Part shown: piece after piece, positions 5,370-23,632 of the stretch
Numbering within the stretch: position 1 is the stretch's first letter
How the letters are laid out: every line of letters starts with the position of its first letter
Assembly (NCBI RefSeq): GCF_013466425.1
Contig: NZ_CP059165.1
Coordinates: forward strand, 5,332,001 to 5,396,000
Source: Mycobacterium vicinigordonae
GTDB taxonomy: Bacteria > Actinomycetota > Actinomycetes > Mycobacteriales > Mycobacteriaceae
Reading direction: 5' to 3'
Length of the DNA stretch: 64,000 nt
Notes under the pieces: model-generated
Told to the model about the DNA's origin: nothing
Databases searched by the model: none
The model's input: only the letters and a program-made list of their open reading frames with translations
Translations under genes and position numbers: made by a program

Positions 5370-5381
5370 GCTTGATTCTCC

Positions 5382-6419: not shown

Positions 6420-6536
6420 CGCTCCTCACTCGCTTGTTGAACAGGGTTTGTTCGCGATTTCCAGGCGATATGCAGCCTACCGAGTCCGAGCCGATGCCAA
6501 CGGTATCTGCGGGCAACTGTCGGGCAGACTAGGGCG

Positions 6537-6800
6537 ATGACCCAAGGGAGAAAACCCAACGAGCACGACACGTTGGCGCACATCCGCGACCTCGTCGCAC
6601 AGGAGAAGCTGCTGCGCACTCAGCTGCAGCAGGGCGAGATTTCGACCACCGAGGAGCACGAGCGGCTGCAATCGATCGAGGTCGAACTCGACCAGTGCTG
6701 GGATCTGCTGCGGCAGCGACGGGCGCTGCGCGAAACCGGCGGCGACCCCCGCGAAGCCACCGTGCGCCCGGCCAACGAGGTCGAGGGCTACACGGGTTAA
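6537..6800 (+). CDS. DUF2630 family small protein
   Basis: An 87-residue soluble, highly charged, mostly helical protein (HIRDLVAQEKLLRTQLQ, then ERLQSIEVELDQCWDLLRQRRALRE). This is the DUF2630 pattern, and it corresponds to Rv0898c, which sits at the same place next to arfA. The helices have heptad-like spacing and probably form a coiled coil or helical hairpin. It is followed 6 bases after its stop by the FAD oxidoreductase gene, so the two are probably co-transcribed. No enzymatic motif is present and the function is unknown. Confidence 0.9.
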   Translation: MTQGRKPNEHDTLAHIRDLVAQEKLLRTQLQQGEISTTEEHERLQSIEVELDQCWDLLRQRRALRETGGDPREATVRPANEVEGYTG

Positions 6801-6806
6801 CCGCGA

Positions 6807-8348
6807 ATGGACTACGACGTAGTCGTGGTCGGCGGAGGCCACAACGCCCTGGTGGCGGCGGCCTACCTGGCCCGCGCGGGCCTTGGGGTGCGCGTCCTGG
6901 AACGCCAGGGCCACGTCGGTGGTGCCGCGATCTCGGCTCGGATCTTCGACGGCGTCGACGTGCGGCTGTCGCGGTATTCGTACCTGGTCAGCCTGCTGCC
7001 GTCGCGCATCCTTACCGACCTGGGCGCGCATGTTCGGCTGGTCCAGCGGGCCTACTCCTCCTACACTCCCGACCCCGGCACGAGCGGTCGCACCGGCCTG
7101 CTGGTGGGGTCATCCGGCGGATTCGAATCGATCGGTGCGGCCGCCGACGAGCACGGCTTCGACAGCTTTTACCGTCGCGCCCGCCTGGTCACTCAGCGGC
7201 TCTGGCCCACTCTGCTCGAGCCGCTGCGTACCCGCACCCAGGCTCGTCGCCTGGTCTTGGACGGAGGCGATCCCGACTCGGTAGCGGCGTGGCGGACCCT
7301 GATCGAGGAGCCGATCGGGCACGCGATCGTCGACGCGGTGAACAATGACGTGGTTCGAGGGGTGATCGCCACCGACGCCTTGATCGGCACCTTCGCCCGG
7401 CTGAACGACCCGTCGCTGCAGCAGAACATCTGCCTGCTGTACCACGTACTCGGTGGGGGCACCGGCGACTGGAACGTCCCGGTCGGTGGCATGGGTGCGG
7501 TGACTTCGGCGCTGTCCGCCGCCGCCACCGGATTTGGGGTCGAAATATCAACGAGCACTGATGTTTTCGCTATCACCCCGGACTGCGATGTGCACTATCG
7601 CGACGCGGGTGGTGAGCACGTCCTCCGCGGCCGGTTCGTCCTGTCCGGCGTCTCGCCAACGGTGTTGGCAGGCCTGTTGGGTGAGACCGCACCTGCGTCG
7701 ACCCCGGGCGCGCAGGTCAAGGTGAACATGGTGCTGCGGCGGCTACCCCGGTTGCGGGACCAGCAGGTGAAACCGCAACAGGCATTCGCAGGCACATTCC
7801 ACGTCAACGAAACCTGGTCCCAGCTCGACACCGGCTACAGCCAGGCCGCCAACGGCCTGCTGCCGGATGTGTTGCCGTGCGAGGCCTACTGCCATTCGCT
7901 GGCCGACCCGAGCATAGTCTCACCCGAGTTGACCGGTGTGCAGACGATGACGGTGTTCGGCTTGCACACCCCGCACTCGCTGCCGGCCGACGCCGCCGCG
8001 CTCACAGACTCGGTGCTTACGTCACTGAATTCCGTTCTAGCCGAACCTATTCAGGATGCGCTACTGCCGGACGCACATGGGCGTCCGTGTATCGAGACGA
8101 CGACTACCGCCGACCTGCAACGCACCCTGGGGATGACGGCGGGCAACATCTTCCACGGCGCGCTGGCGTGGCCGTTCGCCGAGGACGACGACCCGCTGGA
8201 CACTCCGGCCCGAAAATGGGGGGTGGCCACCGAGCACCCACGAATCATGATGTGCGGCTCGGCTGCCCGCCGGGGCGGGGCCGTTTCGGGTATCGCAGGC
8301 CACAACGCCGCGATGGCAGTGTTGGCGTCCCTGCCCGACAGTGGCTAA
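6807..8348 (+). CDS. FAD-dependent oxidoreductase of the phytoene desaturase/amine oxidase type
   Basis: A 513-residue flavoprotein. It starts with a Rossmann dinucleotide-binding motif (DYDVVVVGGGHNALVAAAYLARAG, G-x-G-x-x-N) and the FAD-binding LERQGHVGGAAISA. Near the C-terminus it has the FAD-closing segment MMCGSAARRGGAVSGIAGHNAA. This pattern is that of the pyridine nucleotide-disulphide / phytoene desaturase-like family (Rv0897c counterpart). No carotenoid genes lie nearby, so the substrate is not evident. It is probably co-transcribed with the DUF2630 gene. Its stop codon sits in a small hairpin shared with the stop of the convergent gltA2. Confidence 0.88.
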   Translation: MDYDVVVVGGGHNALVAAAYLARAGLGVRVLERQGHVGGAAISARIFDGVDVRLSRYSYLVSLLPSRILTDLGAHVRLVQRAYSSYTPDPGTSGRTGLLVGSSGGFESIGAAADEHGFDSFYRRARLVTQRLWPTLLEPLRTRTQARRLVLDGGDPDSVAAWRTLIEEPIGHAIVDAVNNDVVRGVIATDALIGTFARLNDPSLQQNICLLYHVLGGGTGDWNVPVGGMGAVTSALSAAATGFGVEISTSTDVFAITPDCDVHYRDAGGEHVLRGRFVLSGVSPTVLAGLLGETAPASTPGAQVKVNMVLRRLPRLRDQQVKPQQAFAGTFHVNETWSQLDTGYSQAANGLLPDVLPCEAYCHSLADPSIVSPELTGVQTMTVFGLHTPHSLPADAAALTDSVLTSLNSVLAEPIQDALLPDAHGRPCIETTTTADLQRTLGMTAGNIFHGALAWPFAEDDDPLDTPARKWGVATEHPRIMMCGSAARRGGAVSGIAGHNAAMAVLASLPDSG

Positions 8349-8359
8349 CGCCGGTTAGC
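8344..8359. terminator. Short hairpin spanning both stop codons of convergent genes
   Basis: GCTAAC / GTTAGC is a perfect 6-base inverted repeat with a 4-base loop. It contains the TAA of the FAD oxidoreductase gene and the TAA of gltA2. With only six bases between the two genes, it could act as a weak bidirectional stop for RNA polymerase. There is no U-tract, so confidence is low. Confidence 0.35.
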
Positions 8360-9647
8360 GCCCGTCCATGCCAACATAGTTGCGCTCGGTGTAGCCCGTG
8401 TAGATCTGACGCGGACGGCCGATCTTGCTATCGCCCTCGTCGTGCATCTCGCGCCAATGCGCGATCCAGCCGGGAAGCCGACCCAGCGCGAACAGCACCG
8501 TGAACATCCGGACCGGGAAGCCCAGCGCCCGGTAGATCAGGCCGGTGTAGAAGTCGACGTTCGGGTAGAGCTTGCGCTCAATGAAATAGTCATCGGTCAG
8601 CGCAGCCTCTTCGAGTTGCTTGGCGATGTCAAGCAAGGGGTCGCCGCCAAGCTTGGCCAGGATCTTGTCGGCCTGCTCTTTGACGATCCGAGCGCGCGGG
8701 TCGTAGTTCTTGTAAACCCGGTGGCCGAAGCCCATCAGCTTGACGCCCTCTTCGCGGTTCTTGACCTTGCGGACGAATTCGCCGACGTCGTCGCCGCTCT
8801 CCTTGATCTGCTCGAGCATCTCCAGCACCGCCTGGTTCGCGCCGCCGTGCAGCGGACCCCACAAAGCATTGATGCCGCCCGAGATTGAGGTGAACAGATT
8901 GGCCTGCGATGACCCCACCAGCCGTACCGTGGACGTCGAACAGTTCTGCTCGTGGTCGGCGTGCAGGATCAGCAGCATGTCCAGGGCGCGGACCACCTCG
9001 GGGTCGGCCTGGTAGGGCTCGGCCGGGAGCCCGAACGTCATGCGCAGGAAATTCTCGACCAAGGTCAGCGAGTTGTCCGGGTAGAGGAACGGCTGTCCGA
9101 CCGACTTCTTGTATGCGTAGGCGGCGATGGTGGGCAGCTTGGCGAGCAGCCGAATCGTGGACAGCTCGACCTGCGTGTTGTCGGTCGGGTCCAGCGAGTC
9201 CGGGTAGTACGCCGACAGTGCGTTGACGGTGCTGGACAGCACCGGCATTGGGTGAGCGTTGCGCGGGAAGCCGTCGAAGAACCGCTTCAGGTCCTCGTGC
9301 AGCATCGTGTGCAGCTGAATGCGGCCAGTGAACTCGGCCAGCTGGTCGGCGGTGGGCAGCTCGCCGTAGATCAGCAGGTAGGACACCTCAATGAAGTTGG
9401 ACTTCTCGGCGAGCTGATCGATCGGGTAACCGCGATAGCGCAGGATTCCGGCGTCGCCGTCGATATAGGTGATGGAACTCTTGCAGGCCGCAGTGTTGAC
9501 GAAGCCATTGTCGAACGTGGTGTGTCCGGTCTTGGACAGCAGCGGACCCAGCGCAATACCGTCGGCACCTTCGGTGGCATGGACGACCTTCAGGTCGATC
9601 TCGCCACCCGGGTACTTCAGAGATGCGGTGTCGTCGGTGTCGCCCAC
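8355..9647 (-). CDS. gltA2: Citrate synthase GltA2
   Basis: A 430-residue hexameric-type (type II) citrate synthase, condensing oxaloacetate and acetyl-CoA at the entry to the TCA cycle. Visible active-site elements are the [10 protein letters not shown] segment, [13 protein letters not shown], the signature [14 protein letters not shown], and the catalytic Asp in NVDFYTG. Length matches Rv0896 (431). The gene is preceded by 258 bases without a clear gene. It is the main housekeeping citrate synthase; a shorter paralogue, citA, is 10.5 kb further on. Confidence 0.97.
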
Positions 9648-9905
9648 GAGAACCCCTTTGCGCTCAGGCTTGATATGACTACCTGCCCTTGTGCGTACAG
9701 GTGTGCACTAAGGGCGTCATAGGTGAAGGTAGTCGTTATCGCAGCGGCGTGCCTGCCCGGGGTCGGGTCTGCAGGTCACGCCGTCCATCCGGGCTCCGCC
9801 GAGCACGCGGGTGGCCCCAGCGGGGGCAGCGAAGGTGACGGCGGCGTCGGTGGAAATGCCCAGGTGCATCCGGCGGTCGGGAACTAGAAGCCATCGGCGC
9901 GGGGG

Positions 9906-11171
9906 TCACGACCGCGCCAGCACCCGGTAGTTCACAAATGCCGGCGCGACCAATGCCGCCACCACCACGCCCAGCACCACCAGCGCCCCACCGCCGGCCG
10001 CTGCCGCGGTAGTTCCGACCATTGCGGCGGCCGCGCCGTGCAACGTGTCGGCTAGCCGTGGCCCGCCACCGACCACGACCGCGAACACGCCCTGAAGCCG
10101 CCCGACCACATCGTCAGAGGCAGCCTGCTGAAGGATGGTCGACCGGAAAGCCGCCGACACCATGTCCGCCGCACCACCGAATGCCAGGAATACCACCGCG
10201 AGCCACAGCATCGCCCCCGCCCGGCCGTGCGCCGCACCGCTGGCCAGACCGAAGCCCACCATGGCCAGGCCCCACGCCACAATCGAGACGACGATCACCA
10301 GCCCCTGGCGCCGGACCCTCGGAAACCACCCCGAGAACACTCCCCCGGCCACCGCGCCGACCGCGATGGCCGCCGACAGCAACGCCATCGCCGAGCCACC
10401 CTCGATGGGACCGCCGAAGCTCTGGTGCGCCATCTGCGGAAACAGCGCCCGCGGCATACCGAAGATCATCGCGATCAGGTCAACGACGAACGACATCAGC
10501 ACCACCGTATTGCCGGCCAGATAACGGAAGCCGTCCAAGACCGCACCCAGACCCCACCGAGACGTCCCGGCAGTTTCCACGGCGGGCATCGGCGCCAGCC
10601 GGAAAGTCGCCCAGATCGGCAATAGGCATGTCACAGCGTCAAGCAAATACAACGCCGATAGGTCGACCCAGTTCAGCAGCACACCGGCCAGCAGCGGCCC
10701 GGCGATTGCACCGAACTGGCCCACGGTCATGTTCAGCGCGTTGGCTGCGGGCAATTGCTCACCGGGCACCATCCGCGGGATGGCCGCCGAGCGCGCCGGT
10801 GAATTGACGGCAAAGAACGCCTGCTGCACCGCCAGCAGACACAGCACCACCCAGACGTCGTTAAGCGCCAGTAGCGCTTGCAACCAGAGCAGCAGCGAGG
10901 ACACCGCCAGCCCGCACGACGCGACAATCAGCAGCACCCGCCGGTCCATAGCGTCGGCCCAGGCACCGCCCAGCAGCCCGAACACCACCAGCGGCACCAG
11001 CGAGAACAGTCCAGCCAGCCCAACGTACGCCGAGCTCTGGGTCAGCGCGTAGATCTGGACCGGGACCGCGAAGATCGTGAGGTTGGCGCCGATGACGGTC
11101 GGAATGCCGGCCACCCAGAGCCGGCGGAAATCAGGGGTGCGCAGCGGGGTGGTGTCCGCGAACAGTGGCAT
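9906..11171 (-). CDS. MFS transporter (EntS-like permease)
   Basis: A membrane protein of about 421 residues with 11-12 hydrophobic segments in two halves. The conserved loop between segments 2 and 3 reads GLLGGAWADAMDRRVLL, the major facilitator signature of the EntS/tetracenomycin-type efflux group. I chose the ATG at 11171 (MPLFADTTPLRTPDFRRLW), because the family usually begins just before such an LRxxxFRRLW segment; an ATG at 11249 would add 26 Arg/Pro-rich residues. It lies divergent from the giant signalling gene, with their starts 152 bases apart. Transport substrate is unknown. It is not in the H37Rv segment as I recall it. Confidence 0.87.
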   Translation of the reverse strand: MPLFADTTPLRTPDFRRLWVAGIPTVIGANLTIFAVPVQIYALTQSSAYVGLAGLFSLVPLVVFGLLGGAWADAMDRRVLLIVASCGLAVSSLLLWLQALLALNDVWVVLCLLAVQQAFFAVNSPARSAAIPRMVPGEQLPAANALNMTVGQFGAIAGPLLAGVLLNWVDLSALYLLDAVTCLLPIWATFRLAPMPAVETAGTSRWGLGAVLDGFRYLAGNTVVLMSFVVDLIAMIFGMPRALFPQMAHQSFGGPIEGGSAMALLSAAIAVGAVAGGVFSGWFPRVRRQGLVIVVSIVAWGLAMVGFGLASGAAHGRAGAMLWLAVVFLAFGGAADMVSAAFRSTILQQAASDDVVGRLQGVFAVVVGGGPRLADTLHGAAAAMVGTTAAAAGGGALVVLGVVVAALVAPAFVNYRVLARS

Positions 11172-11323
11172 CGTCGATGAGGTTACCGGTGGCGATCGCG
11201 GGCGCCCCGAACCCAACCGCGCTGCCACGGCCCAGGCCGCAGACCGCAACCCGCCGGTCGGCCGTCCATGTTGCTGGCGGTCTTTACCCGATCTTGACCG
11301 TGCGTTGAATCGACTTACCGACG

Positions 11324-14300
11324 ATGGCGGATGTGACTACCCTTCAAGACGTGGAGCTGGGGGTTTTGGGCCCTCTTCAGGTCCGGCAGCGCGGCGTACC
11401 CGTCGTCATCCCGGGCGCCAAACCGCGCGCCTTGCTCACCGTGCTGGGTTTGCACCACGGCTCCGTCGTTCCGGCCGATACGTTGATCGAACTGCTCTGG
11501 GGCACCGATCCGCCCCGCACCGCCGCCAAGGCCCTGCAAACACACATCTCCGCGCTGCGCCGCACGCTTGGCGACGGATTCGTGTTGACCGAGGGATTGG
11601 GATGGAAGCTCGCCGGAGCAGACGTCGATGCCTCGCGTTACAGAGCGACAGCCCGGGCGGGACGTGACGCGGCTGCCGCTGGCGACACCAGCCAGGCGGT
11701 GGCCCGCTTCGAAGAGGCGCTTTCGCTGTGGCGTGGAATCCCCGAACTGCCCGACGGTCGGCGCGGCACGTCAGAAAAGACGCGCTGGATCGAGGGCCAT
11801 GCCGCGCTCGTCGAGGACCGCGCCGACGCGTTGTTAGCCACCGGTCGCGCCGCCGAGATCATCGGAGACCTCGAGGCCGCGGTGGCCGAGGCACCGCTTC
11901 GCGAAAGACGTTGGGGCCAACTGATGCTCGCCCTGTACCGCGCCGGCCGTCAGGGCGAAGCCCTCGCCGCCTACCAGCGGGCGCGGTCAATGCTCGCCGA
12001 CGAGCTGGGCGTCGACCCCGGACCCGAACTGCGTCGCCTCGAGGCGGCCATTGTCGCGCAGGACTCTTCTCTGGATGTCGTTGTTGTACAGCTACTCCCG
12101 TCGGTAACGCGGGCGGTCACCTTCTTGCTGACCGATATCGAAGGATCCACGTCCGCTTGGGAATTGGACGCCGACGCGATGGCAGTTGCGTTGGCTCGCC
12201 ACGACGAAATCATCGAACAGGTCGTCACCGCCCGTGGCGGACGGCTGATCAAAACCCGCGGTGAGGGCGACGCGACGTTTTCGGTCTTCGACCGGCCGTC
12301 GGCAGCGGCCGCTGCCGCTATTGATCTGCAGGAAGCCATCTTTAGTGAGCCGTGGGCATTACGGGAGCCGATGCGGGTACGCGTGGCGCTGCACACCGGC
12401 GAGGTCGAGTTCCGCGACGGCGACTACTTCGGCCGGGCGGTCAACCGCGCGGCGCGGTTGCGGTCGCTGGCCGCCGGCGGGCAGATCCTGTGCTCGGGCG
12501 CCGTCGCCGAACTTGTCATCGACACATTGTCCGACGACGTGGTGCTCGCCGATCTGGGGACTCGCCACCTGAAGAACTTGGCCCGCCCGGAGCACGTTTT
12601 CGAACTCCGCCTGGACACCGAGCGACACGAAGACGTCAATCTGGAAGCTCCGACGCTGGAACGGCCGCCCCTGCCCGCGGTGTTGATCGGCCCGGGTCCC
12701 TTCGTCGGCCGCGGTCCGGAACTGCAGCGGCTGCTGTCGTCGTGGCAGAGCGGCGGCACGCATGCGGTGTTGATCGCTGGCGAGCCGGGGGTCGGCAAGA
12801 CCCGGCTGGCCGGTGAATGGTCCCAGCGGGCCTACAAACAGGGGGCATTCGTGCTCTACGGCCGGTGCGACGAGGATTTGGGCGCGCCGTATCAGCCGTT
12901 CGCCGAAGCGCTGCGGTCGCTGGTGCCGAGCGTGGGCGCGGACCGGTTGCGCGGACTACGCGGTGTGGAAGCGCTACTCCCCCTTGTTCCCGGACTGCCC
13001 GACGTAGTGCCCGATCTGGCGTCCCCGGCCCGTTCGGGCCCCGACACCGAGCGCTACGCGCTATTCGATGCCGTCGTCGCTCTGCTCGAAGTAGCTTCGG
13101 CCGCGGCGCCGGTGATCCTGGTCCTCGATGATCTGCACTGGGCGGCAAAGCCGACCCTGCTGCTGTTGCGGCATCTGCTGCGCTTCGGCGACCGGGCCCG
13201 CGTCCAGATCGTGGGCACCTACCGCAGCACCGACCTCGACCGATCGCACCCGTTGGCGGCGATGCTCGCCGACCTGCACCGGGACGGCAGCGCCAACCGG
13301 CTGAACCTCAGCGGTCTCGACCAGGACGACGTCACGGCTTACGTGGCCGAGGCCGGTTACGACGAGGAACTCGCCCACGCGTTGGCATCCGTCACCGGCG
13401 GCAACCCGTTCTTTCTGATCGAGGCGCTGCGCCACGTCGACGAGAGCGGCGGCGTCTGGGATCAAAGCACCCTGCCACAAGGGGTGCGAGAAGCGGTGAG
13501 CCGCAGGCTTTCCCGACTCTCTTTGGAAACCAACAAAGCGCTGTCGGCCGCGGCCGTCGTCGGCAGCCGGTTCGGCCTAGAACTGGTCGAGACGGTGATC
13601 GGCACCGATCTCGTCGACGCGTTCGACGAGGCGTGCCAAGCGGGTCTGGTCATCGAAGAGCCCGGCGGCCGGTACCGCTTCAACCACGCCATCGTGCGGC
13701 AGTCGCTGTTAGCCGAGCTGGCATCGGTGCGGCGCATGCGGCTGCACCAGCGCATCGCCTCGACGCTGGAGAATCAGCCCGGTGCCGACGACCAGCTGTT
13801 AGCAGAACTGGCGCATCACTACTTCGAATGCGCCTGGGCTGGAAACGCATCGAAGGCCGTGTCTTTTTGCCGGCGTGCCGCAGACCAGGCGATGGCTCGG
13901 CTGGCCTATGAGGGTGCGGCCGACCTCTACGACCACGCGCTGCACGCGTTGCAGGAGATCGACGACGAGCTGCCCGACCGCGACGAGCAGACCGCCGAGC
14001 TGCTGGTGGCGCGCTGCGAGGCGCTGCTCGCCGCGGGCGATATGGGTGCGGCGACAGGTGCGGTAACCCAATTGCATTCGGCAGCAGTCGATTCCCTGCA
14101 TCTGACGGCATGGGCGACGTGCTTCGATGGGCAGTTGTCGATGCTGATCCACCCCGAACGACTCGATGAAGTAGAAGCCGCATTGGGGGTGGCCGCCGCC
14201 AGGTTAGCCGAATTGGACGATGCCGCAGGCGAAGCTAAGGCACACACCGTACGGGCTGGGTGCCTGGCCCGCCTCGGGCGTATCGGTGACTGTGAAGTCG

Positions 14301-17300
14301 CGCTGGACGATGCCCTCACCGCGGCGCGGCGATCGCGAGACCACCGTCGGGTGAACGCGGTGCTGGCCGGTGCACCGCTGGCGGCTCTGTGGGGTCCTAA
14401 TCCTGTTCCGCGCGCGGGCGGCCGGTGCCTTGACGTGGTGCGGCTGCTGCGCATCACCACTGACTCGCCTGCGGTCGAGGCCACTTCGACGCGATGCCAG
14501 GCGGTCCTCGAGGCGTTTCGCGGACGCACGGCCGCCGGTCGGCGCATGATCGACTCCGCGCGGCGCACTGTCACCGAGCTCGGGCTGCGGCACTCGCTGC
14601 TCGAAGTGGAGCAGTTCGCCGGTATCGTCGAATTGGTCGCCGCTGATCCTTCCATGGCCGAGCCACATCTGCGTAAGGCCTACAACGGTTTCCGTCGAAT
14701 GGGTTTAGATGCCGACACTGCCGAGACCGCTGCGCTGCTTGGACGCGCTTGCCTCCTGCTCGACCGCGAGGAAGAGGCCAGCGAATTGTGCGCGGAGAGT
14801 GAGCGTCTAGCGGGGCACGCGTTGAAGGCATCAATTGCGTGGCGCTTGCTTCGGGCGCACTTGCTGACGCGCTCTAGTGATTACGACGAGGCTCGCCAGG
14901 TAGCTGAGGCCGCCGTCAGCCTGGCCGAGCGCACCGACTTGTTAGTCGACCACGGCGATGCCTGTCTCACCCTCGCAACAGTATTACGCGCTGGCGGCGA
15001 TGCCGCGGCCGCACGTGCCGCAGCCAGCCGGGCTGTCGATCTGTATGAGCGGAAAGGCGCTGCGGCACTTGCCGAAATGGCACAGTCGACGCTTGCGGCC
15101 GAACGTCGCCTTGTACTAGCCGCACCCGACGAGGCGCGCGTCGAGCTGGACAACGCGTGTGTCCGAGCATCCGGCCAGGTGGCGGCCGCTGTCGATCGCG
15201 AGGCTTGGGACGAGCTGGCGCGGCTTTTTGCCCCCCAGGTGATCGTCGAGAGCCGCCGGAAGTTAGTTCGCTTCAACCGGGACGATCTTCCCACCGCCCC
15301 GTGGCCGCAGCAGGTACGCCGGCTCGGTGAGAGCGGGGCACTGCGGTTCCAGACTGTCGGAGTCCTGGCAGTACGAGGAGAACACCTTGCCCTGACTCGA
15401 CTGAAAGTAGGCACGGCCGACAAGAGCGTGGGGTCGCCGCACGACGAATTTCTTCAATTGTGCCGTCTCGACGCGGACGGGCGTATTGCACTTCAGATTT
15501 GGTTCGACCTCGATGACGTTGACGTCGCAATCGCTGAACTCGACGCCGCGCACGAGCGGTCCGGGAAGGTGCAGGAAGCGTCCGTCGAACTGCACAACGC
15601 ATGTGTGCAGGTGATCCGCCACGGCGAAGCTGCTATCCATCGCAAAGCGTGGGACGAGTACGAGCGGTTGATTTCACCCGACGTCATTGCCGAGAGTCGG
15701 CGAAAGGTGGTCGGGTTCAAGCAAAACGATCTCCCCGACGAATGGCTGGATCAGGCGTCGCAGCTACTGCGGTCGGGAACCGCACGCCTCGCCTCGATTA
15801 TCGTCCTAGCCACCCGAGGCGAGCACCTAGCTCTCGTCAGGGCGGTGCTGGGCACCGACGACGAGAGTCCAGGCGCGCCGTCTGACGAATATCTGCACCT
15901 GATTGCCATCGACGATCAGGGCCGAATCTCGCGGCAGGTGTTCTTCGACGCCGAAGACATCGATTCCGCGCTGGCCGAGCTTGACGCCGCGTACGCCCGG
16001 TTCGCGAAGTCCCGCCCTCAAACGCCTCTCGAGAACACCGCAAGCCGCGCGGATGCTCGGTTCAACGACCTTTTCGCAGGGAGGTGCTGGAACGAGTTCG
16101 ACGCCCTACTCATCGACGACCTCCGTATCGAAGATCGACGGCAGGGGCTTCACCAAGACGGCCGTGGCCGCGCCGCAGCGCTCGCTGAGCTTCGGGCGAT
16201 CGCGGGGGTTGGCACCACGACAATGACCTCGCACGTGGTCGCGGTTCGCGGAGAACGTCTGGCCCTCGTTCGTACCAAGTACTCGGGCCGAGACACTCGG
16301 CCCCCGGGGTTCGATACCGAGGTACTCCGCATCGCCGAGATCGACACCGAAGGTCGGATGCTCGCATACGTCGCGCTCGACGCCGATGACCTCGACGCCG
16401 CGTTCGAGGAGCTCGATCGTCGATATTTGGCCGGGGAAGGTGCGGCCCACGCCCACACCTGGTCGGTGCTCGTGCAAAGTTTCGCTGCGTTCAATAGACA
16501 CGAACTCCCTTCGGTGACGCCGGACTGGGTGAATGTCGACCACCGCCGCGCACGAGCCTTCGCGCCCGGCGACCTCGTCCCATACATCCGTGCCACATGG
16601 GAACTCGCGCCGGAAGCCACCATCTATGTCGTGGCCGTGCACCGCCTGAGTGGCCTCGGGGCGGTCGTCACGCAGGCGACATGCGGGACGTCGCGAGCTG
16701 GCTTCGACGTCGAGTGGCTAGAGGTCACTCTTTTTACGGTCGAAGGCGGCCGGATCAGCCGTTGTGAGGTTTTCGAAGAGGCAGACCTGAACGCGGCAAT
16801 CGCGAGGTTCGATGAGCTCACCCAACCGCTGCCGCGACTGCAGAATGCGGCAAGTCGGGTCGACCAAAGAGTTCTCGCGTACCTTTCGGCCGGAGACTTG
16901 GCGGCTACCGCGGGTTTGTTGTCCGACGGCTATTGCAGCGATGATCGGCGGCAGGTAGTCGGCGTCGGCACCATACGCGGTCTCGCTACCGCAAGCGGGA
17001 ACGCCGCAAGCGCCGAACTCGGAGTCACCTTCGAAGTACTGGAGGTCATCGCAACCCGCGGAGATCGTCTCGCCCTCAGTCGAATACGCTGTTCTCGAAC
17101 GGATCAGCGCAATGGACCCCTCGACACCGAGATGCTCAGCCTCGTCGAGGCCAACCCCGACGAGCATCTGAGGGCGCGAATCATGTTCGACCCTAACGAT
17201 GTCGACACTGCCTTCGCCGAACTGGATGCGCGATACCGCGCTGGTGAGGCCGCACCATACCTGGATACCTGGTCGTCGATCAACCAAGGTTTCGCCGCTC

Positions 17301-19273
17301 TCAATCGCCGCGAACTCTTTGCCTCAGAGCCTGATTGGGTCAATATCGATCACCGCAAAGGGACCTCGATCGCGACTGGTGAGATGCCGGCGCTGCTTGA
17401 CGCGGCATGGCGTGTGCCGTCCGAGCTGACTTACCGCATTGTGGCAGTGCCACGTTTGAATGAGCACGGAGCCGTCCTCACCCACGTGACCCGCGAGACC
17501 TCGGACGAAGGCTTCTTGGCTGAGTGGCGGGTAATCAGCGTCATCACCTTCGATGGCGAGTTGGTCGACCGTTGCGAGATTTTTGATGAGGCAGACCTCG
17601 ATGCCGCGATCGCTCGTTTCGATGAACTACACCTGCCAGCAAAACGATTGCAGAACAAGGCGAGCCGTGTCGGCGCTCGTTCCTTTGGACATTTCGCCGC
17701 GGGTGAAATCGACGCGGTGGCCGAGATCATGGCGGCCGGCTGTCACATCGAAGACCGCCGCAAGTTGGTGAGCGTCGGGTCCTGGGACGGTCACGATGCC
17801 GTCATGGCAAATATGCGGGCGTTGTCCGACGGTGCGACGAACAGAACATTGACCGTTATCGCGACGCGCGGGGAACGACTCGCCCTCTTTCGGGTCAGTG
17901 CGCCGAATCGCGATGCAGGGCAAGGACAGTTCGGCGTCGAGGTGCTCAGCATCACCGTGATCGACGCCGACGAGCGGATCACCGCTCACGTCCTGTTCGA
18001 GCCGGACGACTTCGACGCGGCTTTCGCCGAACTCGATGCGCGCTACCTCGCCGGCGAAGCCCCCGCTGCGGCTCGTACGTGGTCGATGATCGCGGGAGCC
18101 TACGCAGGATTCAAACGACATGATCTTCCCGCGATGACGTCGAATCTGGTTTACGTCGACCACCGACCGCTCGTGTCGATCGAGGGGGTTGACCTTGCCG
18201 CATCGATACACGCCTTATGGGATCTCATGCCTTCCAGCCGCGCGTACATCGAGGCGGTGCATCGCCTGACCGAGTTCGGGGCCGTCATCACACAGGCGGT
18301 GACCGGAACGTCGCAGGACGGCTTCGATGCTGAGCTTCAGATGGTGGCCGTTTTCACGGTCGAGGGCGACCTGCTTGCTCGAGCCGAAGTCTTCGACGAG
18401 ACAGACCTCGACGCCGCTATCGCTCGCTTCGAAGAGCTGCACGCGCAGGCGCAGCAACCACAAACCGCGGCCTGCAGAGTGGCCGAGCGCTTTATCGCGA
18501 GGTACGCGGTCGGCGACTGGAACGCCATGGCGGACATGCTTGCCGAAGACTTTCTGAACGATGATCGCCGTCAATTGGTGGGTTCGGGAATCCGACTGGG
18601 CCGGGATGCCCATATGGCGGATGTGCAAGCCCTCACCGACCTATGCCTCACCAATGTGACGCCGAGAGTCATAGCGACCCGCGGCGAACGACTAGTCCTC
18701 GCCCGCAACAGTCTTTCAGATAGCGAACTGGGACCCGAGGCTAACCTCACCGAAGTACTCAGCATCCTCGAGATTGCCTCCGACGAGCGGATTGTCGCTC
18801 TGATCACCTTCGACGTCGACGACCTTGAGGCCGCTTTCGCCGAACTCGAGGCCCGATACCTCGCCGGTGAGGTCGCCGCCCACGCTCGCACCTGGTCAGT
18901 CCTCACCGGGGCATACGCGTCCCTCAACAAGCACGAAATACCGTTGACAGCAACTGATTTCGTGGACGTCGACCACCGACCCCTGGCCCCGGTCGGGCCT
19001 GGCGACCTCAGGGCTTACCTGCGCGCCGCGTTGAACGAAACGACGCACAACAACCTCTACGTTGAGACTGTTCATCGATTGACCGATACCGGTGCGGTCG
19101 TCACTCATGTGGCGAGCGGGACTACATCTATGGGCTTCGAAGCCGAGTGGCGCATCACCGTCCTCTTCATGATCGAAGGGGAGTTGCTCAGCCGGTGCGA
19201 AATGTTCGACGAGGCTGATCTCGATGCCGCTCTCGCCCGCTTCGACGAGTTCGACCGCTCACCTAGGACATAA
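11324..19273 (+). CDS. Giant multidomain regulator: OmpR-type HTH, BTAD, class III cyclase, STAND ATPase, TPR-like region, ten SnoaL-like repeats
   Basis: A 2,649-residue protein (roughly 285 kDa). Domains in order: winged helix of the OmpR/SARP type (about 12-95, ALQTHISALRRTLG); BTAD helices (about 98-245); class III nucleotide cyclase (about 263-430) with metal Asp271 in LTDIEGST, a KTRGEGDATFSVF segment and NRAAR for transition-state Asn/Arg; AAA/STAND ATPase (about 463-820) with Walker A GEPGVGKT (486-493) and Walker B VLDDLHW (D602/D603); TPR-like helices to about 1265; then ten SnoaL/NTF2-like units. It has no LuxR-type HTH at the C-terminus, unlike the related Rv0890c-type proteins at this locus in H37Rv. 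Active-site residues look intact, so cyclase and ATPase activity are plausible but inferred. Confidence 0.93.
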   Translation: MADVTTLQDVELGVLGPLQVRQRGVPVVIPGAKPRALLTVLGLHHGSVVPADTLIELLWGTDPPRTAAKALQTHISALRRTLGDGFVLTEGLGWKLAGADVDASRYRATARAGRDAAAAGDTSQAVARFEEALSLWRGIPELPDGRRGTSEKTRWIEGHAALVEDRADALLATGRAAEIIGDLEAAVAEAPLRERRWGQLMLALYRAGRQGEALAAYQRARSMLADELGVDPGPELRRLEAAIVAQDSSLDVVVVQLLPSVTRAVTFLLTDIEGSTSAWELDADAMAVALARHDEIIEQVVTARGGRLIKTRGEGDATFSVFDRPSAAAAAAIDLQEAIFSEPWALREPMRVRVALHTGEVEFRDGDYFGRAVNRAARLRSLAAGGQILCSGAVAELVIDTLSDDVVLADLGTRHLKNLARPEHVFELRLDTERHEDVNLEAPTLERPPLPAVLIGPGPFVGRGPELQRLLSSWQSGGTHAVLIAGEPGVGKTRLAGEWSQRAYKQGAFVLYGRCDEDLGAPYQPFAEALRSLVPSVGADRLRGLRGVEALLPLVPGLPDVVPDLASPARSGPDTERYALFDAVVALLEVASAAAPVILVLDDLHWAAKPTLLLLRHLLRFGDRARVQIVGTYRSTDLDRSHPLAAMLADLHRDGSANRLNLSGLDQDDVTAYVAEAGYDEELAHALASVTGGNPFFLIEALRHVDESGGVWDQSTLPQGVREAVSRRLSRLSLETNKALSAAAVVGSRFGLELVETVIGTDLVDAFDEACQAGLVIEEPGGRYRFNHAIVRQSLLAELASVRRMRLHQRIASTLENQPGADDQLLAELAHHYFECAWAGNASKAVSFCRRAADQAMARLAYEGAADLYDHALHALQEIDDELPDRDEQTAELLVARCEALLAAGDMGAATGAVTQLHSAAVDSLHLTAWATCFDGQLSMLIHPERLDEVEAALGVAAARLAELDDAAGEAKAHTVRAGCLARLGRIGDCEVALDDALTAARRSRDHRRVNAVLAGAPLAALWGPNPVPRAGGRCLDVVRLLRITTDSPAVEATSTRCQAVLEAFRGRTAAGRRMIDSARRTVTELGLRHSLLEVEQFAGIVELVAADPSMAEPHLRKAYNGFRRMGLDADTAETAALLGRACLLLDREEEASELCAESERLAGHALKASIAWRLLRAHLLTRSSDYDEARQVAEAAVSLAERTDLLVDHGDACLTLATVLRAGGDAAAARAAASRAVDLYERKGAAALAEMAQSTLAAERRLVLAAPDEARVELDNACVRASGQVAAAVDREAWDELARLFAPQVIVESRRKLVRFNRDDLPTAPWPQQVRRLGESGALRFQTVGVLAVRGEHLALTRLKVGTADKSVGSPHDEFLQLCRLDADGRIALQIWFDLDDVDVAIAELDAAHERSGKVQEASVELHNACVQVIRHGEAAIHRKAWDEYERLISPDVIAESRRKVVGFKQNDLPDEWLDQASQLLRSGTARLASIIVLATRGEHLALVRAVLGTDDESPGAPSDEYLHLIAIDDQGRISRQVFFDAEDIDSALAELDAAYARFAKSRPQTPLENTASRADARFNDLFAGRCWNEFDALLIDDLRIEDRRQGLHQDGRGRAAALAELRAIAGVGTTTMTSHVVAVRGERLALVRTKYSGRDTRPPGFDTEVLRIAEIDTEGRMLAYVALDADDLDAAFEELDRRYLAGEGAAHAHTWSVLVQSFAAFNRHELPSVTPDWVNVDHRRARAFAPGDLVPYIRATWELAPEATIYVVAVHRLSGLGAVVTQATCGTSRAGFDVEWLEVTLFTVEGGRISRCEVFEEADLNAAIARFDELTQPLPRLQNAASRVDQRVLAYLSAGDLAATAGLLSDGYCSDDRRQVVGVGTIRGLATASGNAASAELGVTFEVLEVIATRGDRLALSRIRCSRTDQRNGPLDTEMLSLVEANPDEHLRARIMFDPNDVDTAFAELDARYRAGEAAPYLDTWSSINQGFAALNRRELFASEPDWVNIDHRKGTSIATGEMPALLDAAWRVPSELTYRIVAVPRLNEHGAVLTHVTRETSDEGFLAEWRVISVITFDGELVDRCEIFDEADLDAAIARFDELHLPAKRLQNKASRVGARSFGHFAAGEIDAVAEIMAAGCHIEDRRKLVSVGSWDGHDAVMANMRALSDGATNRTLTVIATRGERLALFRVSAPNRDAGQGQFGVEVLSITVIDADERITAHVLFEPDDFDAAFAELDARYLAGEAPAAARTWSMIAGAYAGFKRHDLPAMTSNLVYVDHRPLVSIEGVDLAASIHALWDLMPSSRAYIEAVHRLTEFGAVITQAVTGTSQDGFDAELQMVAVFTVEGDLLARAEVFDETDLDAAIARFEELHAQAQQPQTAACRVAERFIARYAVGDWNAMADMLAEDFLNDDRRQLVGSGIRLGRDAHMADVQALTDLCLTNVTPRVIATRGERLVLARNSLSDSELGPEANLTEVLSILEIASDERIVALITFDVDDLEAAFAELEARYLAGEVAAHARTWSVLTGAYASLNKHEIPLTATDFVDVDHRPLAPVGPGDLRAYLRAALNETTHNNLYVETVHRLTDTGAVVTHVASGTTSMGFEAEWRITVLFMIEGELLSRCEMFDEADLDAALARFDEFDRSPRT
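15128..19255 (+). repeat. Ten tandem SnoaL/NTF2-like coding repeats
   Basis: Units begin near residues 1269, 1416, 1569, 1707, 1841, 1976, 2111, 2246, 2381 and 2518 of the giant protein. Units 1, 2, 3, 5, 7 and 9 are type A (core VIATRGERLALxR). Units 4, 6, 8 and 10 are type B (start TWSxx, core VHRLxxxGAVxTHxxxGTS). From unit 3 on, A and B alternate, and the A-to-A distances 1841-2111-2381 are exactly 270 residues (810 bases). Every unit has an SRRK, DRRQ, DHRR or DHRP motif near its first third, and ends in D-x-D-x-A-x-A-x-x-E/D-L/F. The pattern shows growth by duplication of a two-unit module. Confidence 0.9.
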
Positions 19274-19388
19274 CCCACCGCGAGAACGGCACAGGCGCGA
19301 TGATGCATCGCCGGACTCGCAACGGGGATGACGGTCATGAAACTGGCCCGGGCGTGGCCTGAACGCGGGGCAAACGACCCCACGGGCA

Positions 19389-20057
19389 TCACGGCTGCAG
19401 TCGCTCCACCACGCCGTCGCAGACCCTAATCCTGTTGTGCAACCGGTCTTCTCGGCCCTGCCAGAACTCAATTACCTCGGGCGCGATCAGGTACCCGCCC
19501 CAGTTCGGCGCAACCGGCACCCGTTCGGTGTCAGCGAACCGCGCAGTCACGGTGGCCAGCTGCTCGAGCAGCGCCGCACGCGACGCGATCGGCTGCGACT
19601 GATGCGAGGCCCAGGCCCCCAATTGCGAGCCACGCGGCCGCTTCGACCAGTACTCTTCAGTCGCCTCTGCCGCGACCTTGGTGACCGCACCCCGAACGTG
19701 GATCTGACGCCCCAGCCGATACCACGGGAAGGTTGCCGACGCATACGGCGTCGCCGACAGCTCCAAGCCTTTGGCCGAGTTGTAGTGCGTGAAGAACGTG
19801 ATCCCGTTTTCGTCGGCTCCTTTGCACAACACCGAGCGGCTCACCGGCCGCCCATCCAGGACGGTGGCCACCACCATGGCGTTGGGTTCGGCAACTCCGG
19901 CGCTCTCGGCGTCGGCCATCCACCTACGAAACAGCGCCAACCAACCGTCCGCCAGCCAGTTCGCGTCGAGATCGGTGCTTCCATCCTTCTCGACGGATCC
20001 GTACTCCGCCCGCATCCCAGCCAGGCGATTCTGCTCAGCTCCGGTCACCGCGCCCAC
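19389..20057 (-). CDS. pdxH: Pyridoxamine 5'-phosphate oxidase PdxH
   Basis: A 222-residue FMN flavoprotein that oxidises pyridoxamine or pyridoxine phosphate to PLP. Family marks are visible: the FMN- and substrate-binding [53 protein letters not shown], the SQ-rich HQSQPI segment, [28 protein letters not shown] and the closing [14 protein letters not shown]. It is convergent with the giant gene and divergent from citA, 65 bases between starts. A GTG at 20048 is an alternative start. In H37Rv pdxH is elsewhere as I recall, but adjacency to citA is natural here and supplies PLP-dependent neighbours such as serC and dapC. Confidence 0.93.
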
Positions 20058-20122
20058 GCTACTCGCCGCCGGTTACCAGCCGGTAGTAACGGGCCTGCGG
20101 ACGGGTGCAAGAATCAAGCCCC

Positions 20123-21241
20123 ATGACAGTGGTCCCCGAGGATTTTGTCCCAGGCTTAGAAGGTGTGGTGGCATTCACCACCAAGATCGCCGAACCGGAC
20201 AAGGATGGCGGCGCACTGCGCTACCGCGGTGTCGACATCGAGGACTTGGTGGGCCGCGTCCACTTCGGTGATGTATGGGCACTCCTCGTCGACGGAGACT
20301 TTGGCCGCGGGCTGCCGCCGGCCGAGCCGTTCCCGTTACCGATCCACACCGGCGACGTGCGGGTCGACGTCCAGGCAGGCCTGGCGATGCTGGCGCCGAT
20401 CTGGGGATACAAACCGCTGTTGGATACCAACGAACCCACCGCGCGCGACCAGCTGGCCCGCGCGTCGGTGATGGCACTGTCTTACGTCGCGCAATCTGGC
20501 CGCGGCATCTACCGGCCCGCGGTTCCCCAGCGCGTCATCGACGAATGCTCAACGGTCACAGCACGTTTCATGACGCGCTGGCAGGGCGAACCGGACCCCA
20601 GGCACATCGAAGCGATCGACGCCTACTGGGTGTCGGCGGCCGAGCATGGGATGAACGCATCCACCTTCACCGCGCGAGTGATCGCCTCTACCGGGGCCGA
20701 CGTGGCTGCGGCCCTGTCCGGCGCCATCGGAGCGATGAGCGGCCCCCTGCACGGTGGTGCCCCGGCTCGCGTGCTGCCGATGATCGAGGAAGTCGAGCGC
20801 ACCGACGACGCCCGCGGTCTGGTCAAGGGCATTCTGGACCGCAACGAGAAGCTGATGGGCTTCGGGCACCGCGTCTACCGCGCCGAGGACCCGCGCGCCC
20901 GGGTGTTGCGCGCCACAGCCAAACGGTTGAATGCGCCGCGGTACGAGGTCGCTGCCGCGCTCGAGCAGGCGGCCCTGGCCGAATTGCGGGAACGCCGCCC
21001 CGACCGGCCGATCGAGACCAACGTGGAGTTCTGGGCGGCCGTCATCCTCGATTTCGCCGGGGTACCGGCGGAGATGATGCCGGCGATGTTCACCTGTGGT
21101 CGCACCGCAGGATGGTGCGCACACATTCTTGAACAGAAGCGGCTCGGCAAGCTGGTCCGCCCGTCGGCGATCTACGTGGGCCCGGACCCCCGCAGCCCGG
21201 AATCCGTGCCGGGTTGGGACGCCGTCGCCACCCCCGTGTGA
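20123..21241 (+). CDS. citA: Citrate synthase 2 (CitA)
   Basis: A 372-residue citrate synthase-family enzyme. The start at 20123 gives MTVVPEDFVPGLEGVVAF, matching Rv0889c; an ATG at 20105 would add six residues. Active-site segments present are [48 protein letters not shown] and ETNVEFWAAVIL (catalytic Asp replaced by Glu in the NV-E-F position, where gltA2 has NVDFYTG). That Glu is also in the tuberculosis CitA as I recall it. Lengths and these differences fit the second, Bacillus-like citrate synthase group, which may include methylcitrate synthase activity. Exact substrate range is not settled by the sequence. Confidence 0.93.
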   Translation: MTVVPEDFVPGLEGVVAFTTKIAEPDKDGGALRYRGVDIEDLVGRVHFGDVWALLVDGDFGRGLPPAEPFPLPIHTGDVRVDVQAGLAMLAPIWGYKPLLDTNEPTARDQLARASVMALSYVAQSGRGIYRPAVPQRVIDECSTVTARFMTRWQGEPDPRHIEAIDAYWVSAAEHGMNASTFTARVIASTGADVAAALSGAIGAMSGPLHGGAPARVLPMIEEVERTDDARGLVKGILDRNEKLMGFGHRVYRAEDPRARVLRATAKRLNAPRYEVAAALEQAALAELRERRPDRPIETNVEFWAAVILDFAGVPAEMMPAMFTCGRTAGWCAHILEQKRLGKLVRPSAIYVGPDPRSPESVPGWDAVATPV

Positions 21242-21414
21242 TCCGCTCACCCTATTGCCGCGAACGTAACCGGGCCGCGATTTCCCGGCGCTGATTGCAC
21301 GGCTGGTGATACCAGCGAGTGCGAACGAGTAAGACAATCTGCTGCCTAAGCGATGAGTTTTCGGCACCGCCCTGGTCAATACGAGCGACCGCACATCGAG
21401 CATCAGGAGTGACC

Positions 21415-21870
21415 ATGGCCATCACCGTCCAACCCGCACTGTCCCCCCACCTCGTCGTCGACAACGCCGCCGCCGCAATCGACTTCTACGTCAAGGCGTT
21501 CGACGCGGTTGAGCTGGGTCGGGTGCCTGGGCCGGATGGCCGGTTGATCCACGCCGCGGTACAGATCAACGGCTTCACCGTGATGCTCGCCGACGACTTC
21601 CCGGAGATGTGCAGCGGCCAATCGATGACCCCGAAGGCGCTGGGTGGCACCGCAGTCACTATCCACCTGACCGTCACCGACGTCGATGCCAAGTTCCAGC
21701 GCGCGCTCAACGCCGGGGCCACCGAGGTGATGCCGTTGGAAGACCAGTTCTGGGGCGACCGTTACGGCGTGGTCGCCGATCCGTTCGGGCACAACTGGTC
21801 ACTGGGACAGCCTGTGCGCGAGGTCAGTTACGACGAGATCCAGAAAGCCATGTGCGCCCAGGCAGACTAG
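21415..21870 (+). CDS. Glyoxalase/VOC superfamily protein
   Basis: A 151-residue vicinal-oxygen-chelate protein with two beta-alpha-beta-beta-beta halves. The first is LSPHLVVDNAAAAIDFYVKAFDAVE and VQINGFTVMLADDFPEM. The second is VTIHLTVTDVDAKFQRALNAGATEV and WGDRYGVVADPFGHNWSLGQ. This is the PhnB-like glyoxalase pattern, counterpart of Rv0887c. The ATG at 21415 follows AGGAG at an ideal distance, and upstream in-frame starts give a Cys-rich, unlike-protein stretch, so I rejected them. The sphingomyelinase gene (Rv0888) that lies beside it in H37Rv is absent here. Confidence 0.9.
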   Translation: MAITVQPALSPHLVVDNAAAAIDFYVKAFDAVELGRVPGPDGRLIHAAVQINGFTVMLADDFPEMCSGQSMTPKALGGTAVTIHLTVTDVDAKFQRALNAGATEVMPLEDQFWGDRYGVVADPFGHNWSLGQPVREVSYDEIQKAMCAQAD

Positions 21871-21943
21871 TTTGTCGCTGTTGCTGGTGCCGTATTCGCC
21901 GGTGGGACGCCTACAGCTGCGTAACCTGTCCGAGCGGGTACAG

Positions 21944-23632
21944 CTAGCGCCGAAGCCGTGCCAGCAGGCGTCGTCCCCGGGTAGGCGGCTGCGGCGCGGT
22001 GGCAGCTACCGCAAGCATGTCGGCGACATCGGTGAACTTGACCCGCGGCCGCCCATCCTCACCACCGCGCGCAATTTCGGCGGCGTCGATGGCTCGCCAC
22101 CCAGCAGAGTCCACGACGGCCGGCTGGCGCTGGGCCACCAGCTTCCGTAATGCCGCGGGTTTGGCAACCGGGGCGGTCAGGCGTCCCTCGTTGAAGTCGG
22201 CCACCAGCGCCCGGATGGTCTGCAACGAGTCGGACTTGTTGGTGCCGATGAAGCCGGTGGGCCCACGCTTGATCCAGCCTGCGACGTAGGCGCCCACGAC
22301 GGGCCGTCCGGTCTCAGGATCGATGACGCGGCCCTCCTCATTGGGGACGACGGCGGCTGACTCGTCGAACGGGAGGTCGCGAATTGCCTTACCGCGGTAG
22401 CCAATCGAGGTCAGCACCAGGCCCGCGTCAATGCGGCGCACCTCGTCGGTGCCAGAGACGTCGAACTCGACGCCAGTGGCGTGCGCCTCACCGAGGATAC
22501 GGCGGGGTGTCAGCTGGTACGCCAACCGGATACGCGGTCCTGATGCCGGCGACGAGCTGTCGCCTAGCGCGTGCAGGATCTCCAACTTGTTGCGGGTCAG
22601 TGCATCCGACACAGTGGCCAGGTCCTGCTGCACCAGCCGGTGGTCCTCGGCGTCGAGCACCACCTCAGCGGTAGCCGTGAGGCCGATCAGCTCGGGTAGG
22701 GTGAATGCCGAGTGGGCGGGTCCGCGGCGGGCCGCGATCACCACCTCCCTTACCGCCGATTTTTCGAACGCCTTCAAGGCGTGATCAGCGATGTCGGTGC
22801 GGGCCAACTCGTCTGGGTCGGCGGTGAGCACCCGCGCGACGTCCAGTGCGACGTTGCCGTTGCCGACGATCACCACCCGCTCATGGCTGAGATCGACTGG
22901 CAGGGAGGAATACTCGGGATGTCCGTTGATCCAGGCGACCAGCTCGGTAGCGGTGCCGGTGCCTGGCAGGCCCATTCCCTCGATGTTGAGGCGACGATCG
23001 TTGGGCGCACCCACCGCGTACAGCACCGCGTGATGATGCTGTAGCAGCTCAGCGTGGCTCAGGTGGTTGCCGATTTCCACATTGAGGAAGAACCCAAACC
23101 GCCGATCAGCGGTCACCCGGTCGAACAACCGAGTCACCTGCTTAGTGTGCTGGTGATCAGGCGCCACCCCAGCTCGCACCAAACCGTATGGTGTGGGCAG
23201 CTTTTCGAAGATGTTGACCCGCACGTTCTGTTGCACCAGGAGTTCGTCTGCGGCATACATGGCCGCTGGCCCCGATCCCACGATGGCGACCGTCAGCGGC
23301 TCGTGTTGTGCGCTCACAGCGGCGGCCGGGAGTACCGCGGCCAGCTTCGAGGTCGGCGGCAGCTTCACGCCGGCGGGCCGCTCCGGGTAGAACGACGCGT
23401 TGATCTCCACGAATGGCAACTGTTTGAGGTCAAGCTTGCTGTCGGGCACGATCGCGCCAACTGGGCAAGCACTCACGCAGGCGCCGCAGTCTACGCAGGC
23501 CACCGGGTCGATGTAGAGCATCTCCGATGTCGCGTAGCCCGGCTCGTCCGGGGATGGGTGGATGCAATTGACCGGGCACGCGAAAACGCACGACCCGTCA
23601 TTGCAGCACGACTGGGTAATTACGTGCGGCAC
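21944..23632 (-). CDS. fprB: Ferredoxin/NADPH-adrenodoxin reductase-type flavoprotein FprB
   Basis: A 562-residue fusion. An N-terminal bacterial ferredoxin (1-65) has cysteines 9, 10, 15, 19 and 23 and a second set C46-x2-C49-x2-C52-x3-C56, so one or two Fe-S clusters (7Fe type likely). After it comes an adrenodoxin reductase-like flavoprotein with an FAD Rossmann motif (VAIVGSGPAAMYAADELL, about 115) and an NADP-binding motif (VVIVGNGNVALDVARVL), closing with VAGWIKRGPTGFIGTNKSDS. It probably passes electrons from NADPH through FAD to its own ferredoxin or to P450/oxygenase partners. The diiron oxygenase gene lies 20 bases upstream in the same operon, a plausible electron acceptor. Confidence 0.95.
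   Translation of the reverse strand: MPHVITQSCCNDGSCVFACPVNCIHPSPDEPGYATSEMLYIDPVACVDCGACVSACPVGAIVPDSKLDLKQLPFVEINASFYPERPAGVKLPPTSKLAAVLPAAAVSAQHEPLTVAIVGSGPAAMYAADELLVQQNVRVNIFEKLPTPYGLVRAGVAPDHQHTKQVTRLFDRVTADRRFGFFLNVEIGNHLSHAELLQHHHAVLYAVGAPNDRRLNIEGMGLPGTGTATELVAWINGHPEYSSLPVDLSHERVVIVGNGNVALDVARVLTADPDELARTDIADHALKAFEKSAVREVVIAARRGPAHSAFTLPELIGLTATAEVVLDAEDHRLVQQDLATVSDALTRNKLEILHALGDSSSPASGPRIRLAYQLTPRRILGEAHATGVEFDVSGTDEVRRIDAGLVLTSIGYRGKAIRDLPFDESAAVVPNEEGRVIDPETGRPVVGAYVAGWIKRGPTGFIGTNKSDSLQTIRALVADFNEGRLTAPVAKPAALRKLVAQRQPAVVDSAGWRAIDAAEIARGGEDGRPRVKFTDVADMLAVAATAPQPPTRGRRLLARLRR

Follow-up and report, generated by a model that had tools for sequence, protein, structure and literature searches.

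The window analyzed here is a 64,000-nucleotide stretch of the Mycobacterium vicinigordonae genome, which is assembled as one contig of 6,266,765 bases. Within this window lies a single large gene for a candidate regulator of 2649 amino acids. The gene, its upstream neighbors, and the features of the first half of its product are as follows:

8355..9647, citrate synthase gene, upstream of the regulator gene
9906..11249, minus strand, MFS exporter gene, upstream of and divergent from the regulator gene
11324..19273, plus strand, whole regulator gene (open reading frame of 2649 aa; the start codon is ambiguous, as a database copy of the same protein has 2640 aa)
11420..11575, plus strand, OmpR-type winged helix (Trans_reg_C), residues 33-84 (Pfam, 2e-08)
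11624..12052, plus strand, BTAD, residues 101-243 (Pfam, 2.5e-39)
12110..12517, plus strand, class III nucleotide cyclase, residues 263-398, with D271, K310, E314, D316, D367, N374, and R378 (Pfam, 1.6e-08; conservation in 86 rows; alignment to 3mr7 and Ma1120)
12698..13207, plus strand, STAND-type ATPase (AAA_16), residues 459-628 (Pfam, 8.5e-27, above cut-off)
12779..12802, plus strand, Walker A GEPGVGKT, residues 486-493 (from sequence; identical in 86 of 86 rows)
13127..13132, plus strand, Walker B Asp602-Asp603 (from sequence; identical in 86 of 86 rows)
13397..13414, plus strand, GGNPFF, residues 692-697 (identical in 86 of 86 rows)
13871..15103, plus strand, TPR-like helical region, residues ~850-1260 (Pfam TPR_12, below cut-off; 50-52% identical to the TPR region of a second family described below)

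Downstream of the regulator are genes for PNPOx-like, ferredoxin-reductase-like (presumably fprB), and AurF-like proteins, as well as serC and sepH. Rfam gave no match across positions 9000..22000, a tRNA scan of the entire window likewise gave none, and no convincing SARP direct repeats were found upstream of the gene.

The N-terminus of the protein has the arrangement that defines SARP regulators, with an OmpR-type winged helix followed by a BTAD, and is predicted to bind DNA. PDB chains of EmbR and AfsR match within residues 5-253, and the score against the NCBIfam AfsR equivalog model is 150.6 versus a cut-off of 1430. The cyclase domain is recognized by PF00211 at 34.8 bits (cut-off 21.9). 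D271, D367, N374, and R378 are present in 86 of 86 rows of the family and D316 in 85 of 86; we take these residues and their neighbors to include the two metal-binding Asp residues, the substrate-selecting pair, and the transition-state Asn and Arg. The turn KTRGEGD is two residues longer than the KTxGDG turn of the solved relatives 3mr7 and Ma1120, and therefore the metal ligand could be either E314 or D316 and the substrate selector either K310 or R312. Judged from its residues, the cyclase is plausibly active. The ATPase carries the sequence hallmarks of STAND proteins, namely Walker A, Walker B, and GGNPFF, which we take to be the GxP-type motif, all three identical in 86 of 86 rows.

The remainder of the protein is an array of ten units:

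15131..15565, plus strand, unit U1, leader type L (52% identical to U2; HMM)
15566..16018, plus strand, unit U2, leader type L (repeat comparison; HMM; NTF2-like model)
16019..16438, plus strand, unit U3, type A (repeat comparison; HMM; model)
16439..16825, plus strand, unit U4, type B (repeat comparison; HMM)
16826..17242, plus strand, unit U5, type A (repeat comparison; HMM)
17243..17635, plus strand, unit U6, type B (repeat comparison; HMM)
17636..18052, plus strand, unit U7, type A (repeat comparison; HMM; model)
18053..18445, plus strand, unit U8, type B (repeat comparison; HMM; model)
18446..18868, plus strand, unit U9, type A (repeat comparison; HMM; model)
18869..19270, plus strand, unit U10, type B, the final unit (repeat comparison; HMM; model)

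Two leaders (L) are followed by strict A-B alternation from U3 to U10. Ten equal repeats are ruled out, since A and B units share only 12-21% identity, versus 36-47% among A units and 42-50% among B units. The Pfam family SnoaL_2 (PF12680) reaches 57.9 bits over the whole protein (cut-off 27), and no single unit reaches this cut-off alone. The modelled A and L units have the cone-shaped alpha+beta fold of NTF2/SnoaL-like domains, and for these types the assignment from the models is firm. For B units the evidence is weaker. Their model is confident and has the same order of elements as that of A, and two-domain structure matches span A and B; however, B is barely probed by single-domain matches, its profile matches that of A only weakly, and no hit came from a PDB profile search using B units. 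The SnoaL/NTF2-like assignment of the original prediction stands for A and L and is less firm for B. The pTM values of the models (0.55 and 0.65) are too low to fix the arrangement among units. The nearest solved structures are NTF2/KSI-like and include Rv0760c with an estradiol derivative as well as designed binders of vitamin D, 17-OHP, cortisol, and digoxigenin. PMC3924330 notes a tendency of NTF2-like domains to hold small molecules in a shared pocket.

The order predicted for this one open reading frame (SARP winged helix, BTAD, cyclase, STAND-type ATPase, TPR-like helices, and ten NTF2/SnoaL-like units) is therefore borne out by Pfam, repeat comparison, and models, and the cyclase and ATPase motifs named earlier prove to be conserved across the family (86 rows).

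The same layout recurs in relatives. HMMs for the three unit types, built from the L, A, and B units of the window, were run on the best 120 of 959 database matches. Among these 120 proteins, 93 have one or two L units and then (AB)n, 13 alternate but lack L (mostly fragments missing the N-terminus), 10 alternate and end in A, and 4 break the rule. Restricting the set to proteins whose first unit is preceded by 1200 aa or more leaves 86 of the 120 listed, among which 78 fit, 6 have a terminal A, and 2 violate the rule. A query with the N-terminus provided 79 named loci, taken from its best 80 matches. Twelve of these genes run off their contig and two are complete frames without units, which leaves 65, of which 53 fit L+(AB)n. 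Eight of the 12 deviating genes differ only by a missing last B, and frameshifts are possible among the 12. In the 53 fitting genes, protein length equals 1280 aa plus 131.5 per L and 271.8 per A-B dyad, with a residual standard deviation of 17 aa. These genes carry 1 to 11 dyads, which places the window gene with its 4 at the short end, and a database protein of 4624 aa has 12. Alternation is broken in the unit strings of L073, L040, and L085 (LBABAB, LABBA, and a step of AA close to the end), which might illustrate the origin of a parity error. In L027 (a frame of 1278 aa) and L031 (515 aa) the N-terminal part is present and the frame ends before the array; these are possibly decayed copies.

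Parts of this architecture resemble established systems. The Mclx regulators of M. tuberculosis (Rv0386, Rv1358, and Rv2488c) are presented in PMC4452763 as cyclase-AAA/NB-ARC-LuxR proteins, and only Rv0386 is said there to have all the needed cyclase residues. As in these proteins (PMC4452763), a cyclase homology domain precedes an AAA/NB-ARC ATPase in one soluble mycobacterial protein that also has a DNA-binding domain. However, the window protein has an N-terminal SARP module and a C-terminal NTF2-like A-B array, and no LuxR helix-turn-helix was found. The proposal that the array replaces a LuxR output fits poorly, because the DNA-binding domain is N-terminal and the array occupies the place at which STAND proteins have their sensing repeats. 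The 15 Pfam matches of the protein (E up to 1) include no LuxR family. AfsR and related SARP regulators share the order winged helix-BTAD-ATPase-TPR, but the window protein has a cyclase inserted between BTAD and ATPase and the added array. In the ECF41 and ECF56 sigma factors (SigJ, SigG, and SigG1), a C-terminal SnoaL_2 domain is thought to regulate the transcription factor in cis (PMC7730460), and SigG1 (7qh5) is among the structure matches of the modelled units. Those proteins have one NTF2-like domain and neither ATPase nor cyclase, unlike the alternating array described here.

A sensing role is also suggested by a second family. L094 (2448 aa; 2038-9381), L112 (1904 aa; 1521-7232), and L109 (4094 aa; 2205-14486) start with a CxxC zinc-ribbon-like segment, followed by a GDGF-type cyclase and an AAA domain, with no SARP match in any of the three (Pfam was applied to L094). 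All three end in the same kind of alternating array, and L109 has 11 A-type units spaced 273-276 aa apart. Relative to the window protein, this family is 50-52% identical in the TPR region, 26-29% in the AAA domain, and 32-33% in the cyclase. A query with the L094 array matched 6 of 13 genomes that have the dyad and lack the window-type N-terminus. Pairing of the same TPR-plus-array half with two different cyclase-ATPase heads argues that this half is the sensing half.

Arrays are stable at the strain level and turned over between species. The N-terminal parts of the named loci have a mean identity of 82.7%. At N-terminal identities of at least 0.93 (14 pairs), shared units make up on average 52% of the shorter array (range 14-93%), and this mean drops to 33%, 8%, 3%, and 0% in the lower bins, with some of the compared genes possibly being paralogues. 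Best-match unit identities are bimodal with a trough at 0.65-0.70, and in the top bin 102 of 104 steps between shared units keep colinear order. Intervals between consecutive shared units are empty in 59 cases, hold equal numbers of unshared units in 16 (11 of them one versus one), and hold unequal numbers in 27, with differences of two (22) or four (5) units. That all 27 length changes are even was dropped as independent evidence, since evenness between two shared units follows from the alternation itself. If A units recombine mainly with A and B units with B, then length would change in steps of two and the alternation would be kept.

When the 14 close gene pairs were compared in both directions, 216 unit comparisons gave whole orthologues, 214 gave no counterpart, 48 were intermediate, and 9 were one-half matches. 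No two-parent chimeras were found at the threshold used, and thus crossovers inside units have little support. Inheritance of the A-B dyad as a unit is only a trend (linkage of A to the next B in 44 of 92 cases versus B to the next A in 30 of 83, p=0.13). Units are as similar within an array as between genes (A, 0.453 and 0.445; B, 0.485 and 0.484), which speaks against concerted evolution within genes as a general rule; single near-copies within arrays do exist, with up to 0.86 identity. This equality would also be expected if the array were a spacer or scaffold, in which case its units would be parts of a structural arm, drifting in sequence and copied through unequal recombination. Like-with-like recombination would preserve alternation in such an arm without any functional need. 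We consider this explanation unlikely on the basis of the pocket data given below.

Strain-level comparison was made with 44 database proteins (2460-2475 aa), many of them named M. intracellulare or M. paraintracellulare. In 198 pairs with N-termini more than 98.5% identical, array identity averages 0.968 with a minimum of 0.761, whereas in 138 pairs with N-termini below 95% it is 0.60. These values bear on the possibility that the array detects proteins or other larger partners. By this explanation the array would be a surface, NLR-like or conflict-system-like, that recognizes invader or host proteins, with cAMP as the alarm. Bacterial conflict systems do bring together iSTAND ATPases and cNMP cyclases with superstructure-forming repeats and diversification (PMC7159879), and the arrays considered here differ between close relatives. 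However, near-identical pairs give no sign of a strain-level arms race, and in A units the most variable strand positions are on the side of the pocket, where orthologous units keep them. PADLOC models also had no match at the window, although an undescribed defense system would escape them. Overall, a protein sensor seems quite unlikely.

The arrangement of variable positions is most readily described for unit U7, where two features are relevant:

17753..17761, plus strand, Asp2144-Arg-Arg2146 of U7 (Asp2144 and Arg2146 each 99% in 481 A units)
17882..17995, plus strand, residues 2187-2224 of U7, the stretch that holds the hypervariable strand positions of the pocket face

In the register of the ketosteroid isomerase (KSI) fold, set by the alignment of Asp2144 described below, strand residues at 2187-2193, 2205-2211, and 2220-2224 would point in turn toward the pocket and away from it; the faces were assigned from this register rather than from model coordinates. 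Among 481 A units, mean entropy is 3.04 on the pocket face and 1.28 on the opposite face (p=2e-4, with the face sets picked after the A entropies were in view). There are 447 distinct pocket signatures, and in 74 of 75 genes all signatures within the gene differ. For pairs of A units, the ratio of pocket mismatch to mismatch at other variable positions is 1.04, 1.08, 1.01, 0.75, 0.65, and 0.29 with rising identity, from 1.04 in unrelated pairs to 0.65 at 80-90% and 0.29 at 90-99% identity (orthologous pairs). For B units the corresponding ratios in two strands are 1.07, 0.90, 0.69, and 0.23; the highest-identity bins of these comparisons are small (14 and 20 pairs) and the pairs are non-independent. 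In the two B strands of certain register (465 units), entropy is 2.39 versus 1.00 (p=0.010). With the third B strand (2321-2326) included, the aligned register gives p=0.115 and a register shifted by one gives p=0.0025, a shift that departs from two alignments and was chosen with entropies in view. B positions 2336 and 2338 run against the pocket pattern.

The A-unit pocket positions therefore form what appears, from sequence comparison, to be a specificity-determining pattern, variable between units and kept between orthologous units, as expected if each unit type keeps its own specificity. The predicted multi-ligand sensor gains support to this extent from A units, and from B units in two of three strands. 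Slow change of buried core positions between orthologues, i.e., core repacking, is the main alternative and explains part of the pattern; it is also how the spacer explanation would account for pocket-face variability. However, polar residues occupy four of the pocket positions in 40-65% of A units, unlike a repacked core, pocket signatures are conserved between orthologues, and dN/dS is ~0.2 in 122 orthologous-like A pairs (picked at identity of at least 78%). At the pocket sites of these pairs dN/dS is 0.21, a value lowered by selection of the pairs for high identity, and ongoing positive selection at pocket positions is thus unsupported.

The conserved residues of the pocket raise the question of catalysis. 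Asp2144 aligns with the xEDP Asp of the KSI-like structures 6p3l and 5cxo, although these profile matches are weak (E 0.26 and 0.29), and we take it to be the equivalent of KSI Asp40. This KSI-type Asp is present in 99% of A units and 98% of B units. Such conservation would be expected if the units were enzymes, such as isomerases, hydrolases, or cyclase-like proteins, with the regulator head in a secondary role. In addition, the ten best Foldseek matches, and the best for both models, are the epoxide hydrolases Lsd19 and MonB, which likewise have two NTF2-like domains per chain. Yet these are two-domain enzymes, and their domains are placed differently from those of the models, with an rmsd of 11.6 to 22 when both domains are superposed. 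KSI relies on Tyr16, Asp40, and Asp103 (PMC3500292), and in A units, by our mapping, only the presumed Asp40 equivalent of this triad is conserved. Position 2209, equated with Asp103, is variable (Gly, Ser, Asn, Asp, or Gln), as is position 2120, equated with Tyr16 (Phe, Leu, Tyr, or Val). Moreover, sensing would seem a better role for so many diverged copies (a dozen) attached to STAND and cyclase heads. We therefore view a catalytic array as quite unlikely.

Given these observations, we favor a modular multi-ligand sensor that drives a STAND switch with cyclase and promoter outputs and whose repertoire is renewed between species by units, a model to which we assign a little less than an even chance. 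The A and B NTF2-like domains would form a panel of small-molecule pockets, with different units binding different compounds. Ligand binding would be passed on by the TPR-like helices to the STAND ATPase. A nucleotide-driven change in the shape or oligomeric state of this ATPase may then put the N-terminal cyclase and SARP module into an active arrangement. The output would be cAMP (or cGMP) and a bound target promoter. Gain, loss, and replacement of whole units would renew the repertoire between species.

A broader proposal is that these proteins constitute a modular repertoire of chemosensors specific to the genus. Each protein would hold as many as a dozen pocket pairs whose units are tuned to different small molecules, a single STAND switch would read them all and act through cAMP and promoter binding, and reshuffling between species would proceed unit by unit. 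We offer this only tentatively, as it is rather less than probable. If true, the array of a species would be a record of the chemicals it has met, and a signaling chain bearing many different pockets would be the equivalent, in bacteria, of a repertoire of receptors. This could help explain why mycobacteria keep many cyclases (20 domains in the genome of the window). The proposed specificity-determining positions point, unit by unit, to residues for ligand discovery.

The distribution of the family was surveyed in the genus and in the order. The window-type N-terminus (E<=1e-60) is present in 125 of 297 sampled genomes of the genus, a few of these matches being partial, usually in one copy and sometimes in two or three (five candidates scored per genome). 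The A-B dyad is present in 138 of the 297, with at most eight candidates scored in most genomes, such that the counts are not array sizes. An order-wide array search (E<=1e-20; three candidates scored per genome) matched 24 of 397 genomes, and all 24 belong to a single one of the 85 genera. Array or head proteins P0024, P0032, P0121, and P0189 are filed under Kofleriaceae, Acidimicrobiaceae, Sericytochromatia-like, and Actinomycetota bins, which we take for misassigned metagenome bins. Among plasmid records the dyad had no match, and the 226 that match the N-terminus are all below 60% identity.

It had been allowed that the architecture might be common and already described. Common it is (125 of 297 genomes, and the databases), but no description was found among the papers listed by searches of open PMC text. 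The terms SnoaL and BTAD are absent from the main text of PMC3466318, and an actinobacterial cyclase survey is given by PMC2447327. Each module is known, and the array is apparently undescribed as far as our literature search reaches; what is new is the A-B alternation with its step size, the turnover of units, the second head, and the pocket pattern in A units.

The genomic setting varies. We take the neighborhood in the window to be the Rv0886-Rv0896 interval of H37Rv, where the corresponding position is presumably occupied by Rv0891c-Rv0890c. This position, noted in the original prediction, does not extend to the family, as only 6 of the 79 named loci have any of ten window-neighborhood genes, some loci having short flanks. 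No common neighborhood or operon partner emerged from 78 upstream flanks (window included), which form 22 clusters with several genes per genome mixed in. In L014, L030, L031, and L049 a related MFS gene lies downstream of the regulator, whereas in the window it is divergent, indicating that the regulator has moved relative to the MFS gene. The genome of the window has 20 class III cyclase matches, and two such matches lie ~3 kb apart at G000:C1:5128726-5132597, in frames of 1115 and 1548 aa. Neighbors of the regulator in four loci include HSP90, SpoIIE/GAF, phosphodiesterase, luciferase-like, and PmbA/TldD genes.
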